Shown here: positions 9,482 through 38,888 of the stretch, one piece after another
Layout of the letters: every line of letters begins with the position of its first letter
Position numbering within the stretch: the first letter of the stretch is position 1
Assembly (NCBI GenBank): GCA_001791645.1
Contig: MGFA01000016.1
Location: forward strand, 1 to 60,181
From: Candidatus Uhrbacteria bacterium RIFOXYB12_FULL_58_10
GTDB lineage: Bacteria; Patescibacteriota; Patescibacteriia; UBA9934; GWF2-40-263
Direction of reading: 5' to 3'
Length of the DNA: 60,181 bases
The notes under the pieces: generated by a model
What the model was told of the DNA's origin: nothing
Seen by the model: the letters and a program-made list of their open reading frames with translations, nothing else
Database searches by the model: none
Position numbers and translations under genes: made by a program

Positions 9482-12385
9482 ATGTCCGACCTGCTCGCCA
9501 ACCTCAATGAACAGCAGGCAATGGCCGTTACGCACAAAAACGGCCCGCTTTTGATCGTGGCCGGGGCCGGGACCGGGAAGACAACCGTGATTACGCGCCG
9601 CATCGCGTGGCTTGTCGAGCAGGGGATCGCCAAACCGCAGAACATTCTCGCGTTGACGTTTACGGACAAGGCGGCCGGGGAAATGGAGGAGCGCGTGGAC
9701 CAGCTGCTGCCGTACGGGTACGTGGAGCTCCAGATTTCGACGTTCCACGCGTTCTGCGAGAAGCTCCTGCGCGAGTACGCGGCCGAGATTGGACTGTCGC
9801 GCGACTTTTGCGTGGTGAGCGAGCTCGACGGCTGGTTGCTTGCGCGCCGTTCGCTCGACCAATTTGCACTCGACCATTACCGGCCGCTCGGGAACCCGAC
9901 AAAATATCTGCGCGGCCTGCTCACGCACTTTTCGCGCGCGAAGGACGCGGCCATCACCGCGGACCAGTATCTGGCGTTTGCTGACGACTGCGAGGGGGAA
10001 GATGCCGCGCGCGTGCGCGAGCTGGCCGGGGCGTATCACACCTATCAACAAATCTTGCTGGAAAACGACGCCATGGATTTCGGCGATCTGCTTCTGTACG
10101 CGCTGCGGCTGTTACGCGAACGGCCGCGCGTGCTTGATGAGCTTCACCGTCGATACACGCACGTTCTCGTCGATGAGTTCCAGGATACGAATGGCGCGCA
10201 ATATGAAATCGTGAAGCTGATTGCCGCCCCGGCCGACAACCTCACCGTGGTCGGCGATGACGATCAATCCATCTACAAGTTCCGCGGCGCATCGCTTGCG
10301 AACATCATGCAATTTGAAACGGATTATCCGGACGCGAAGCGCGTCGTCCTCATCAATAATTACCGTTCCGTCCAACAGATTCTCGATCATGCGCATCGCT
10401 TCATTCAGGCGAATAACCCAAGGCGACTCGAGGCGCAGGGGAAGCTTGATAAGCGACTCGTCTCGTCGCGTGACGACGAAGGCGTCGTCGGTCACTTGCA
10501 TCTGTCGACGCTCGACGAAGAAACCGAGGCCGTCGCGACAAAGATCTTGGAATTGAAGGCCGCCTATCCGAATGCGAACTGGAATGACTTCGCGATTCTC
10601 ACGCGATCGAACGACGCGGCGGTCCCGTTTTTGGCGGCCCTGGACCGTCACCGAGTTCCATACCAGTTTATGGCGTTGCGCGGGCTTTACGCGAAATCAG
10701 TCATTCTGGACCTGGTCGCCTACCTGAGCGTGCTTCTCGCGCCCTATGACGGGCCGTCATTTTATCGCGTACTCACGCACCCCATGCGAAAGATTTCACC
10801 CGACGCAGTCGCCGAACTGTCACGCTATGCCAGTCGCAAGGGGAAATCGCTTTCCGAAGCCTGCCGGTTCGCGACGATCCTGACATCGTTAGGGGAAGAA
10901 ACGGCCGTCCAATTACAGGAACTGAATGCGGAACTCGATCGATTTCGCATGCTTGTTTCCACGAAAAATATCTCGGAATTGTTCGTCACCATTGCTCGGG
11001 AAGCCGGGTTCGTCGATTACTTGAATCAACTCCCCGAACGGGAGAAACAAGAGGGATTTCGGTATCTTCAGCAGTTTTTCGAACGCGTCAAGCGATTCGA
11101 GGAAATGCATGACCATCCGGTTTTGAAGAACTTTCTCGATGAGTTCGCGGTCGAGCGGGAGGCTGGCGAGGAGGGCGCCTTGCAGTTCGATCCGGACACG
11201 GGACCGGAAATGGTTCGGGTGATGACCGTGCACGCGTCGAAAGGGCTGGAATTTCGATTCGTGTTCGTGATTTCGATGATTGATCAGCGTTTTCCATCCG
11301 TGTCGCGCACGGAGGCAATCCCGCTTCCAAGCGGGCTTATTATCCAAAATGCCATTTCGGACGAGGGTGATGACTGGCACCTGGAAGAAGAACGCCGATT
11401 ATTCTACGTCGCGATGACTCGCGCGAAGGAGCATGTGTACCTCACGTCGGCTGACGATTACGGAGGCGCGCGCAAGCGCAAGCTGTCGCGCTTTCTCAGC
11501 GAGCTCGGTTTCGACAAACCGGAAGGGAAGGAAGCCGCCAAACGCGATCCGTTCGCTAAGGACATATCACCGGTCGATTCCATCGAGTCGCCCGTTGTCA
11601 TTCATCTTCCAAAGCAGTTTTCGTTTACGCAGCTTTCGGCGTTCCGAACCTGCCCGCTTCAGTACAAGTTCGCGCATATCCTCAAAATTCCCGTGTTTGG
11701 AAAATGGACATTTTCATTCGGAAAGACCATGCACAACGCGCTTCATGATTTCTTCCTCCGATGGCTGGAGCGCGCGGGGGTGCAACAGGGGAGTCTGTTT
11801 GGCGCGCCATCGACGGTCGCGGATGGTCTGCCCGTGTCGCTCGACGAATTGCTCGTCATGTATTCGGACGCATGGCAGGATGACTGGTATACGGATGACG
11901 CTCAGCGCGAGGAGTACCGCAAGCGAGGCCGCGGTCAACTCCGTGCCTTTTACGCGTTTCTCGTCGAACATCCTCCGAACCCAAGATTTCTCGAGCAGGA
12001 TTTTACGTTAAAAATCGGCGACGCGGTAATCAAGGGCCGCATCGATCGCGTGGACGCGGTTGACGGCGGCGTGGAGATCATCGATTACAAGACCGGCACC
12101 CCGAAGGAGGACGGCAAGCTAGACGCGTCCGACAAGGAACAGCTGCTTTTGTACCAGATGGCGGCAAAAAATATTTTTGGTCTCAAACCAGTAAAATTAA
12201 CGTACCATTACCTGGAGGATAACTCGCAGGTTTCGTTCATTGGAGACGAAAAGGATCTGCTTCGCCTTCAAGAAAAGATTCTGGACCGCGTGAATGGAAT
12301 TCGAAGGAGCAATTTTGGCCCGACCCCCGGATTCCATTGTAAATACTGTGACTTTGCCGATATTTGCGAATACCGGCAGGGTTAG
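9482..12385 (+). CDS. UvrD/Rep-family helicase fused to a RecB-type nuclease with a predicted Fe-S cluster
   Basis: 967 residues. The N-terminal two thirds is an SF1A helicase: Q-motif LNEQQ, Walker A GAGTGKT (28-34), motif II VDEFQDTN, motif III GDDDQSIYKFRGA, motif VI RRLFYVAMTRAKEHV. The C-terminal part (about 715-967) is a PD-(D/E)XK nuclease: the GRIDRVD and IIDYKTG catalytic strands, and four cysteines placed as in AddB/AdnB-type Fe-S nucleases (Cys724 in FRTCPLQY, then Cys953, 956 and 962 in CKYCDFADIC). Single-chain enzymes of this kind process double-strand DNA ends for recombination; that role is inferred from AdnAB/AddAB. No partner subunit is adjacent. Transcribed from its own extended -10 promoter after the atp terminator. 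Confidence 0.9.
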   Translation: MSDLLANLNEQQAMAVTHKNGPLLIVAGAGTGKTTVITRRIAWLVEQGIAKPQNILALTFTDKAAGEMEERVDQLLPYGYVELQISTFHAFCEKLLREYAAEIGLSRDFCVVSELDGWLLARRSLDQFALDHYRPLGNPTKYLRGLLTHFSRAKDAAITADQYLAFADDCEGEDAARVRELAGAYHTYQQILLENDAMDFGDLLLYALRLLRERPRVLDELHRRYTHVLVDEFQDTNGAQYEIVKLIAAPADNLTVVGDDDQSIYKFRGASLANIMQFETDYPDAKRVVLINNYRSVQQILDHAHRFIQANNPRRLEAQGKLDKRLVSSRDDEGVVGHLHLSTLDEETEAVATKILELKAAYPNANWNDFAILTRSNDAAVPFLAALDRHRVPYQFMALRGLYAKSVILDLVAYLSVLLAPYDGPSFYRVLTHPMRKISPDAVAELSRYASRKGKSLSEACRFATILTSLGEETAVQLQELNAELDRFRMLVSTKNISELFVTIAREAGFVDYLNQLPEREKQEGFRYLQQFFERVKRFEEMHDHPVLKNFLDEFAVEREAGEEGALQFDPDTGPEMVRVMTVHASKGLEFRFVFVISMIDQRFPSVSRTEAIPLPSGLIIQNAISDEGDDWHLEEERRLFYVAMTRAKEHVYLTSADDYGGARKRKLSRFLSELGFDKPEGKEAAKRDPFAKDISPVDSIESPVVIHLPKQFSFTQLSAFRTCPLQYKFAHILKIPVFGKWTFSFGKTMHNALHDFFLRWLERAGVQQGSLFGAPSTVADGLPVSLDELLVMYSDAWQDDWYTDDAQREEYRKRGRGQLRAFYAFLVEHPPNPRFLEQDFTLKIGDAVIKGRIDRVDAVDGGVEIIDYKTGTPKEDGKLDASDKEQLLLYQMAAKNIFGLKPVKLTYHYLEDNSQVSFIGDEKDLLRLQEKILDRVNGIRRSNFGPTPGFHCKYCDFADICEYRQG

Positions 12386-12408: not shown

Positions 12409-12705
12409 ATGGAATCAATCAAGTCATTGCTTGACGGGATGCTCCAGCGCCATCAGATCACGGCGCAAGTGACGACCGCCCGCATTATCGAGGCGACGAA
12501 CGAGTCGCTCGTGCGCATCCTTCCGCACGGACGCGCGTCCGACGCGGTTGCGATTTCGGTTCGGGACGGAGTCATCCTCGTTCATTGCCGAAATTCTTCC
12601 GCGGCGGAACTTGTGTCTTCTCGTGCGAATGCCGTGCTTGATACGATCAAATCAACGCTCCCCACGGCCATCGTCGAGAGAATTCGGACGCGCATCGGCA
12701 CCTAG
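12409..12705 (+). CDS. DciA-like protein (DUF721 family)
   Basis: 98 residues. The layout fits DUF721/DciA: an N-terminal helix (ESIKSLLDGMLQRH), a small KH-like alpha/beta core with ISVRDGVILVHCRNSSAAEL in the place of the family's conserved ssaWa.eL strand-helix, and a C-terminal VERIRTRIG close. DciA loads or stimulates the replicative helicase DnaB in bacteria lacking DnaC. The match is by eye and moderate. The ATG at 12409 is chosen; upstream in-frame codons overlap the helicase gene. No Shine-Dalgarno. Confidence 0.65.
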   Translation: MESIKSLLDGMLQRHQITAQVTTARIIEATNESLVRILPHGRASDAVAISVRDGVILVHCRNSSAAELVSSRANAVLDTIKSTLPTAIVERIRTRIGT

Positions 12706-35638: not shown

Positions 35639-37453
35639 ATGATTGCCGAGGTATATCCCATCATGAGAATGCCGAGAAGGTTCGGCATTTTTGATTATGA
35701 GTTCCCTGAGGAGAAAACGATCTTGCGTGGGACGTTTGTCCGCATTCCATTCCGATTCGGAGAAACCATGGGCGTTGTCGCACGTGTAAAGGAAGGTGGC
35801 GGCAGAGGGATCAAATTGAAACAAATTGCCTCTGTTTTTGAAGAGATTCTCCCCTTTTCGGACGCCGAACTTTCCGCGATCGAGGATATCGCGTTTGACG
35901 TAGCGCAATCCGTCTCAACGATTCTCTATGCGTCCGTTCCAAAACTGACAAAACGTGAGCTAAAATTCGCACAAAACGAATCGGTCCCACTTACCATTCC
36001 TGCTCGGGAAGCGCCTTCTATTACCTTAGCCGCATCTCAGGTCGGGCAACGCGCGGCCTCCTTCGTTGCCATGCCAGACGTTCGTCGGTCGTGCGTTCTG
36101 CTCACCGCCTATTTGCGCGAGCACCCAGATGAGCCCGTCATGGCTCTCCTTCCAAATGTCCGTGACGCAAAATTGATCGCCTCAAGGCTCGGAGGATTTT
36201 CTCCGATCGTCGTGACCGGCGAGGAAACACCCCTTGAGCGAGCGAGGGCATGGCGCGCATGGCGCGCGTGCAAAACAGGGCTCCTCATTGGGACGCGAAC
36301 GGCGGCACTTTGGACCCATCCGGCGCTCGGAGCGATTTTTTTGTTGCGATCCGGGCACCCGAACCACAAGCAAGATGAACGTAATCCACGTTTTGATGCG
36401 CGCGCCGTTGCGGAAATTCTTCGGATTCGACTGCACGCACGCGTCATTTACGTCGACGTTGCTCCGCGTGCAGATGATCTTGCGACTCTTGACCCCATCG
36501 ACCTACTCGGCCCCAGGACTCGTCCGCCAAGCGCAGTCGCCGACATGAACGTCGAGCGATTCGGGGCACCACACCCCCGCATCGGTCAGAGCGCGCTCCT
36601 TCGCATCGCAGAAACGCTGTCAACGCGCCGACGGGTTCTTTGTGCCTACAACCTCAAGGGAGTTTCCAGGCGCCTCCAATGCGCAGATTGTTCCTATCGC
36701 TTCCCGTGCCTCTCCTGTGGCGGTGTATTCGCGTCCTATGGCCAAACGATTCAATGTCATCGGTGCGGTAGAATCGAACCGACGCCGCTTTCCTGCCCTT
36801 CCTGCAATGGGAGTCGGCTTGCTGCCCGCGGCTATGGAAATCGGGCGGTCGCGGCCGCATTACAAACGCTTTTTCCGGAGGCGACCGTTCGATGCGTCGA
36901 AAAAGGAACCGATCCTGCGGGTTCGGACCAATCTGACATTCTCGTAGTCACGCGACACTATTACGAAAATATCTTTGACCCGTTCCAACCGCCCAATGTC
37001 GGTCTCGTTGTTGACCTGGATGCCGACCTCCCTTTGTATGAACCGACGATGCGCGCCGTGGAACATGCTATTCTCAATATGGAGGAATGGCGTGGGGTTG
37101 CCAACGCCTGTCGGGCCGATTTCCTTGTTCAAACGGAAGTTCCCGATCTATTTCGTTCGATTTTTTCGGAACGAGATCGTGTTCTCTCGGACGATCTGAC
37201 CACAAGACAGGCCTATGGACAACCACCATTTCGCAGGATATGTATGATTCGATTCCGTTCATCCGAGCCGCATGAACGCGATCATGCGTTGCGTGCCATG
37301 TCGGATCGCATCCGAGAAGGCGTACCAACCGCAATGATTTCGGACGGTGAGAATCTTCGCGTTTCAATCCCTCCCGAAGACAAGAATCTGCTTTTTGAGA
37401 TTTTCTCGAACGCGGATGACGGATATATCATTGACACACGGCCACTTGAATGA
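35639..37453 (+). CDS. priA: PriA-family primosomal protein lacking helicase motifs
   Basis: 604 residues against about 730 in E. coli. Retained: the N-terminal 3'-DNA-binding-like domain, the helicase-lobe framework (GLLIGTRTAALW, HKQDERNPRFDARAVAEI), and two zinc sites with eight cysteines (348, 351, 357, 360, 373, 376, 386, 389). Lost: Walker A (GVTGSGKT in PriA) reads VAMPDVRRS at about 143-151; the DEEH box reads LRSGH at about 236-240; the VAGRAGR motif VI reads VANACRAD at about 487-494. It should still bind DNA forks but not hydrolyse ATP, so it is probably a loading platform rather than a helicase. There is no frameshift. Confidence 0.85.
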   Translation: MIAEVYPIMRMPRRFGIFDYEFPEEKTILRGTFVRIPFRFGETMGVVARVKEGGGRGIKLKQIASVFEEILPFSDAELSAIEDIAFDVAQSVSTILYASVPKLTKRELKFAQNESVPLTIPAREAPSITLAASQVGQRAASFVAMPDVRRSCVLLTAYLREHPDEPVMALLPNVRDAKLIASRLGGFSPIVVTGEETPLERARAWRAWRACKTGLLIGTRTAALWTHPALGAIFLLRSGHPNHKQDERNPRFDARAVAEILRIRLHARVIYVDVAPRADDLATLDPIDLLGPRTRPPSAVADMNVERFGAPHPRIGQSALLRIAETLSTRRRVLCAYNLKGVSRRLQCADCSYRFPCLSCGGVFASYGQTIQCHRCGRIEPTPLSCPSCNGSRLAARGYGNRAVAAALQTLFPEATVRCVEKGTDPAGSDQSDILVVTRHYYENIFDPFQPPNVGLVVDLDADLPLYEPTMRAVEHAILNMEEWRGVANACRADFLVQTEVPDLFRSIFSERDRVLSDDLTTRQAYGQPPFRRICMIRFRSSEPHERDHALRAMSDRIREGVPTAMISDGENLRVSIPPEDKNLLFEIFSNADDGYIIDTRPLE

Positions 37454-37459
37454 TATCTT
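37431..37459 (+). promoter_or_regulatory. Promoter of def (leaderless)
   Basis: TTGACA (37431-37436), 17-bp spacer, extended -10 TGATATCTT (TATCTT 37454-37459), then 8 nt to the ATG at 37468. It lies across the priA stop. Confidence 0.8.
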
Positions 37460-37467
37460 GGCTCCCT

Positions 37468-37953
37468 ATGCAAATGCATGTCCGAGTAGAAACCGAGCCA
37501 AACAACGAGCTGCGCGTGCGTTCAAATGAAGTTCCACCATCGGAGCTTGGTTCGGCACGAATCAAAAAGCTTATCTCGGACCTCACGGAAACCATGCGGG
37601 CTGAAAATGGATGCGGCATCGCTGCCCCGCAAGTGGGCATTCATGAACGGGTCATCATCGTGGACCCCGGAAACGGACCAAGGGCGTATGTGAATCCTAA
37701 AATCGTATCCCGGTCCCTTAGGACATTTTCATTCGAGGAGGGATGCCTGTCGGTTCCTGGCGTGTGGGGCATGGTCAAGCGACATCGGTCCGTAAAGGTG
37801 AGGGCCCACGACGAAAATGGAATCGAGGTTTCCCTTCAGGCAACTGACCTTGAAGCAGTGATCCTCCAGCATGAGATCGACCATTTGGATGGCGTGCTGT
37901 TCATCGACCGCGTAGAAAAAATTACGAGGCTTCCCAATCACCAGATTCTCTAA
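37468..37953 (+). CDS. def: Peptide deformylase
   Basis: 161 residues. All three motifs present: GCGIAAPQ (48-55), EGCLS (91-95, metal ligand Cys93) and HEIDH (135-139). It removes the formyl group from nascent proteins. An in-frame ATG at 37450 falls inside the promoter, so 37468 is chosen. It forms a pair with fmt two bases downstream, the usual def-fmt arrangement after priA. Confidence 0.94.
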   Translation: MQMHVRVETEPNNELRVRSNEVPPSELGSARIKKLISDLTETMRAENGCGIAAPQVGIHERVIIVDPGNGPRAYVNPKIVSRSLRTFSFEEGCLSVPGVWGMVKRHRSVKVRAHDENGIEVSLQATDLEAVILQHEIDHLDGVLFIDRVEKITRLPNHQIL

Positions 37954-37955
37954 CT

Positions 37956-38888
37956 ATGATCCGCGTCGTTTTTTTTGGAACTCCCTCCTTCTCTATTCCG
38001 TTCTTGCGCGCACTACTGGAGGATCCGACATTTGAGGTCATTGCAACGGTCACGCGACCGGACGAAGAGGCGGGACGTAACCATGTTCTCACGGCTCCTC
38101 CAATCAAAATCGCGGCCGCGGCGGCTGGTATTCCGACGTTCCAACCAACCATGCTGAAATCGGATGACGCGCGCGAGACACTCCGTGCCATGCGCGCGGA
38201 CGTATTTATCGTGTTCGCCTATGGACGCATCATCCCCAAGGCGATCCTTGACCTTCCTCGTTTTGGATGCGTAAACGTCCATCCTTCCCTTCTCCCAAAA
38301 TACCGAGGTCCTTCTCCCATGCAATCCGCCATTCAAAATGGCGACGCGAAAACAGGAATTTCCATTATGCTTCTCGATGAGGGGATGGATACCGGTCCGC
38401 TTCTATCCTCAGTGAATATCGGCCTGGATGACAACGAAACGATCGAAACGCTGACAAAAAAAGTCGAGGAGCAGGGGCCGGGCCTTCTTGTCGAAACAAT
38501 CAAGCGCCTTGCTGCGGGCGAAATCGTGCCAATGGCACAAGACAACGCGCAGGCAACCATTTGCAAGTCCCTTGATCGTGAGGACGGACACATTGACTGG
38601 AATCGGTCCCTCGCACACATCGAACGCATGACGCGCGCATACAAAGGCTGGCCCGGCACCTGGACAACATGGAACGGATTGCGCCTCAAAATCCAGGAGG
38701 TTGCGGAGGCAGATTTCAACGCGGATCTTCCTCCCGGGACCGTAAGCGTTAAGCACAATCAACTATTCGTTGACTGTGCTGACGGAACTCTTGAAATCCT
38801 CACTCTCCAACCTGAAGGAAAACCCAAAATGACGGCCGAGGCTTTTTTACGCGGCTATTCAACCATTGATACCGCCGTATTGACCTGA
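37956..38888 (+). CDS. fmt: Methionyl-tRNA formyltransferase
   Basis: 310 residues. The formyltransferase core has the catalytic Asn-His (VNVHPSLLPKYRGPSP) and Asp in LLDEGMDTGPLL; the C-terminal OB-like domain (about 205-310) contains the DGHIDWN motif. It formylates initiator Met-tRNA. Its last 34 bases overlap the convergent ligase gene on the other strand. Confidence 0.95.
   Translation: MIRVVFFGTPSFSIPFLRALLEDPTFEVIATVTRPDEEAGRNHVLTAPPIKIAAAAAGIPTFQPTMLKSDDARETLRAMRADVFIVFAYGRIIPKAILDLPRFGCVNVHPSLLPKYRGPSPMQSAIQNGDAKTGISIMLLDEGMDTGPLLSSVNIGLDDNETIETLTKKVEEQGPGLLVETIKRLAAGEIVPMAQDNAQATICKSLDREDGHIDWNRSLAHIERMTRAYKGWPGTWTTWNGLRLKIQEVAEADFNADLPPGTVSVKHNQLFVDCADGTLEILTLQPEGKPKMTAEAFLRGYSTIDTAVLT

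Follow-up and report, generated by a model that had tools for sequence, protein, structure and literature searches.

The window, by which we mean the whole 60,181-nt stretch of Candidatus Uhrbacteria DNA analysed here, carries on its + strand at 35639..37453 an open reading frame for a protein of 604 amino acids, with zero internal stops. The NCBIfam PriA models match this protein with E values of 1e-35 to 1e-31, which places the homology beyond chance, and the PDB entry 4nl4 of PriA matches it with E 2.5e-22, the match to solved PriA structures covering residues 198 to about 552. Overall the homology spans the helicase lobes and the zinc module, about residues 198-562 (E 1e-35 to 1e-20), and the 3'-DNA-binding domain PF17764 is also kept (35684..35941, +; 39.6 bits, cut-off 22.7). 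On the helicase equivalog model TIGR00595 the protein scores 107 bits, below the cut-off of 230. The next gene is def (37450..37953, +), in which the peptide deformylase motifs GCGIAAPQ, EGCLS and HEIDH are visible and whose ATG at 37450 shares 4 bases with the priA stop, followed by fmt for methionyl-tRNA formyltransferase (37956..38888, +), where HPSLLPKYRGPSP is visible. The original prediction was thus right both in reporting no frameshift and in reading the gene order as priA-def-fmt. The same order recurs among relatives: def adjoins the gene at 28 of 29 homologous loci of the family and fmt at 26 of them, and among 30 loci of canonical PriA in the phylum def and fmt are each found nearby in 13. 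Because the order is common to both types, it supports orthology rather than paralogy, and on homology and gene order together we take the 604-aa protein to be the organism's genuine PriA, annotated here as a helicase-dead priA ortholog.

The reason for that annotation is seen in an alignment with PriA of E. coli K-12 and about 100 relatives. Walker A, GVTGSGKT, has become MPDVRRSC (36071..36094; family consensus xPD[LIV][RK]R), and the Walker B box DEEH has become LRSG (36344..36355; family consensus [LV]RSG). Motif III changes from GSATP to VDVAP (36452..36466), with D273 invariant in the family; motif V from GTQMLAKG to VTRHYYEN (36947..36970); and motif VI from GRAGR to GVANA (37094..37108), so that its arginines are gone. 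All of these lie on the + strand, as do the parts that are kept. Specifically, the segment following motif II reads NPRFDAR (36383..36403; GWRYHAR in E. coli), and N249, P250, R251, D253 and R255 of this NPRxDAR segment are 97-100% conserved in the family. The cysteine-rich region (36680..36805) retains all eight zinc cysteines, at residues 348, 351, 357, 360, 373, 376, 386 and 389, and the framework residues T438, D463, Q498, T499, R523, P529 and P530 are likewise in place. The loss of Walker A, DEEH and GRAGR from an otherwise preserved framework with complete zinc sites, as originally described, therefore holds up and extends to motifs III and V. Given this motif loss, the 604-aa PriA probably lacks ATPase activity. 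An AlphaFold model of the single sequence, made without an alignment, was too poor to use (pLDDT 35, pTM 0.25).

The genome is a 1.12-Mb draft in 28 contigs, rated 100% complete. A second, intact priA, which had been named beforehand as evidence that would count against the idea, was searched for in it and not found; there is a single PriA, and the other weak matches to the search are UvrB, RecG and a DEAD-box RNA helicase. DnaB, DnaA and DciA are each single-copy, and there are two strong UvrD-family loci. In a search of the genome with the DnaC/DnaI-related family PF01695, DnaA alone scored above the cut-off, with no match of DnaC/DnaI type. The DciA-like gene that had been placed at 12.4 kb does exist, at 12409..12705 (+): its 98-aa product, a candidate DnaB loader and candidate partner of PriA, matches the DciA/DUF721 family PF05258 marginally, at 24.8-24.9 bits for a cut-off of 24. 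A UvrD-family helicase ORF (9482-12385, 967 aa) ends 23 bases upstream of it, and the two may form a functional unit.

To what extent such a PriA is maintained can be read from its rate of change. Pairs of related proteins of this type, which we call pseudo-PriA, have dN/dS of 0.05-0.13 (dS about 0.9-2.5), and pairs of canonical PriA from the phylum have 0.05-0.12; both come from a simple counting method, for which values at dS > 1 are rough. The gene in the window was left out, since comparisons with its same-genus relatives (52-54% identity) are saturated. These values, equal to those of canonical PriA, rule out relaxed selection: pseudo-PriA is under strong purifying selection. The most conserved parts of the protein tend to be lobe 2 and the zinc module, and the family has also acquired new residues, near fixation, at the old ATP site: D147 (97%), R150 (90%), R237 (87%), S238 (90%), D273 (100%) and E443 (93%). 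Over the 30 columns of the former motifs the mean conservation in the family is 63%, compared with 51% over all columns. That the protein is maintained, as had been proposed, is thus well supported, both by dN/dS and by the new conserved residues at the Walker A, Walker B and motif III/V positions.

The motif loss is not peculiar to this organism. Of 60 genomes that were searched, one of them the source of the window, 59 have a PriA homolog. All 30 family sequences that were read, again counting the window's, are helicase-dead with replacements common to the family, as are all 20 sequences read from the order; the zinc cysteines are kept in 30/30 family members, motif VI being unreadable in one incomplete sequence. 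Throughout the aligned set of about 100 relatives, the Walker A pattern GxxxxGK[ST] is absent from every sequence outside the canonical group. In a sample of 380 genomes of the phylum, 138 have a match above the TIGR00595 cut-off, and about 118 have a PriA of canonical type, scoring 431-646 bits with alignments that nearly all start at profile position 1-3; 30 of the canonical-scoring proteins were fetched and their motifs are canonical. Among 286 genomes of the class, no PriA attains a canonical score. The best TIGR00595 match there has 421 bits and begins at profile position 10, and neither a P-loop nor GRAGR occurs in any of the 30 best class matches, which were read individually. Aligning PriA across Patescibacteria had been suggested as a check, and the outcome is a loss that spans the class, with replacements conserved in the family. 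What the earlier account had omitted is that the trait is class-wide, old and has a published precedent.

In a tree of PriA made without the motif columns (SH-aLRT support by a quick method), all class sequences together with several pseudo-PriAs of other classes form one group, separate from the canonical PriAs, with support of 94. Taken with the dead motifs throughout the class, this grouping suggests that the ATPase was probably lost no later than in the ancestor of the class. Two sequences from other classes (L102 and L106) and one from an Anaerolineae genome (L002) lie outside the pseudo-PriA group, so further independent losses are possible. Within the class the decay is graded. Of 60 order and class sequences, 24 still have the Walker lysine in its place in the P-loop, compared with 0 of 30 in the family, and elsewhere the zinc module is gone: in family f3 of the same order, three PriA homologs of about 530-540 aa (L086:199-1788, L087:169-1791 and L088:298-1902) have the entire cysteine-rich module deleted on top of the ATPase motifs, so that the zinc platform is evidently not needed universally. 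A homolog from another class (L104:363-2204, genome G292) has lost four of its eight zinc cysteines and also Walker A. Elsewhere in the phylum, a canonical-scoring PriA (G082:C21:1-1230) contains one in-frame TGA, which may mean that TGA is recoded in that lineage.

A profile built from 41 pseudo-PriAs finds the protein in 195 of the 286 class genomes and leaves it undetected in 91, among them whole families of near-complete genomes, which suggests that PriA is dispensable in many lineages. The presence of PriA is associated with that of DciA: 170 class genomes have both, 25 PriA alone, 21 DciA alone and 70 neither; by family, DciA is found in 56 of the 61 families that bear PriA, whereas it is found in 3 of the 28 that lack it. 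Many of the genomes in which neither was detected (70/286 class-wide) are near-complete, and they come from families f16, f17, f177, f9, f208, f210 and others. To address shared ancestry, RpoB sequences of 76 class genomes and two outgroups (78 in all) were placed in a tree, which requires a minimum of 12 changes of PriA state over 58 families. On the best RpoB tree, weakly supported branches included, an average of 9.9 independent pairs agree and 0.0 are opposed (median p 0.002). Well-supported branches alone leave 3-5 pairs, all of which agree where they differ but which are too few for a test. For pairs of individual genomes, taken from a sample chosen to over-represent discordant ones, the figures are 8.0 same and 2.0 opposite (median p 0.11). 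Because genome reduction could remove both genes, and because a divergent DciA may be missed, we regard the correlation as a lead and not as proof. The suggestion that DciA is the partner of this PriA has thus gained a correlated presence and absence across families, with ancestry partly controlled, and the partnership itself is still an inference. That DciA acts with PriA has already been proposed (PMC9825169), and a demonstration of the link was not found in the literature searched.

The reading that we favour, with a probability of about 0.72, is that an ancestor of the class turned PriA into an ATP-independent pseudohelicase that would serve as a fork-recognition scaffold for reloading DnaB, probably with DciA. 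Since every class PriA inspected is helicase-dead, stalled replication is probably restarted without unwinding by PriA. The protein would use its 3'BD and RecA-like lobes to recognise forks that are abandoned or made by recombination, and the lagging strand would be held by the cysteine-rich region, lobe 2 and the C-terminal domain. PriA of E. coli recognises every arm of a fork, and there these same three elements form a closed pore that encircles the lagging strand (PMC10175261, PMC13377028). DnaB would then be reloaded on this scaffold, and DciA is the probable co-loader because no loader of DnaC/DnaI type was found. If the lagging strand has to be unwound at all, other enzymes would do so; the genome has RecG and UvrD-family helicases. 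The helicase-free platform for restart that was originally envisaged fits what is known elsewhere: ATPase-dead K230A PriA loads DnaB in vitro and is used for loading assays, and the same paper states that PriA-PriB restart in vivo does not need this activity (PMC10175261). Together with PriA of Deinococcus radiodurans (PMC4504706), these observations suggest that such a platform would be biochemically sound. For the class PriA itself, fork binding, loading of DnaB and physical contact with DciA are inferred. A more ambitious version of this scheme, which we put forward tentatively, has ATP-independent restart throughout the class, with PriA as a static clamp on the fork: its rebuilt nucleotide pocket would lock both lobes in the fork-bound shape, and PriA would form a unit with DciA, the two being lost together and many lineages left with neither. 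The idea that a salt bridge forms this lock is conjecture, prompted by the charge and conservation of the residues now at the old ATP site.

The graded decay could also be read as a protein on its way out, in which genome reduction took first the ATPase, next the zinc module and in the end the whole gene, leaving a DNA-binding remnant of marginal use. The lysine that persists in part of the order and class and is missing from the family, the module deleted in the three f3 members and the gene undetected in 91 class genomes would all be stages of such a course. However, a remnant would not be expected to evolve at the dN/dS of canonical PriA, to keep its zinc cysteines at 100% in family f1, to fix new residues at the old ATP site, or to stay next to def and fmt in 26-28 of 29 family relatives, and we consider this account unlikely. 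The new charged residues would also suit a fold that has been given over to some other DNA or protein interaction, in recombination, fork protection or regulation, instead of replisome reloading. This too seems improbable, because the DNA-binding and zinc elements of fork recognition are kept and because PriA tends to occur where the DnaB-loader family DciA does.

The rebuilt pocket might still bind nucleotide, as the conservation of its replacement residues and the Walker lysine of some class members would allow, but the P-loop glycines, the Walker lysine, the acidic pair of Walker B and the arginines of motif VI are gone from both this protein and its family, and in E. coli PriA the single change K230R abolishes ATPase activity, according to work cited in PMC4504706; a cryptic ATPase is therefore very improbable. 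The draft state of the genome, in 28 contigs, might likewise suggest that an intact PriA lies elsewhere and that faulty assembly or annotation produced the one seen here, yet a genome rated 100% complete yields a single PriA match, and the 50 sequences read from the family and order, which all show the identical state, refute this reading.

The scaffold reading makes the class of interest beyond this locus. Most bacteria keep the helicase motifs of PriA, although E. coli can do without the activity. A class that has given up the motor while strong selection maintains the remainder of PriA amounts to a natural experiment in which platform and motor are taken apart. That PriA and DciA are retained and lost in parallel points to a direct tie between the recognition of forks and the DnaB loader that is commonest in bacteria. 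A literature search of partial coverage returned no report of a helicase-dead PriA in Patescibacteria. Helicase-dead PriA is already known from Deinococcus-Thermus; what is new here is that the ATPase motifs are erased and their replacements fixed, that this state extends through the class, and that PriA correlates with DciA.

With canonical PriA (E. coli, Klebsiella; TIGR00595, PDB 4nl4 and 8fak) the 604-aa protein shares the domain order, the 3'BD, the two lobes, the eight zinc cysteines and the framework residues T438, D463, QT498-499, R523 and PP529-530, as well as the def-fmt gene order in part of the phylum; unlike it, the protein is without motifs for binding or hydrolysing ATP, is shorter (604 vs 732 aa) and falls under the TIGR00595 cut-off. 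Actinobacterial PriA is regarded as helicase-defective, and its PRK14873 models match the 604-aa ORF weakly. The PriA of one Anaerolineae MAG (L002:2931-5384, CAIRYE010000218.1; 818 aa) resembles it in having Walker A replaced (KSDQKSSDSVY) and the zinc cysteines kept, but is known from that MAG only and branches among canonical PriAs, so that this loss, within Chloroflexota, was probably independent. The closest parallel is D. radiodurans, which has no clear PriB or DnaT homolog and whose PriA, without ATPase or helicase activity, binds fork DNA and DnaB (PMC4504706). It too is a PriA ortholog with poor Walker A and B and the rest of PriA conserved. Its Walker A is still recognisable, GKT having become GRT (PMC4504706), whereas in the 604-aa protein each of motifs I, II, III, V and VI has been replaced, with the new residues fixed, and the loss spans a whole class of small-genome bacteria; the D. 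radiodurans protein has been assayed, whereas that of the class is known from sequence. Since D. radiodurans PriA is a proven pseudohelicase, the class PriA would be a deeper and much wider variant of the same.
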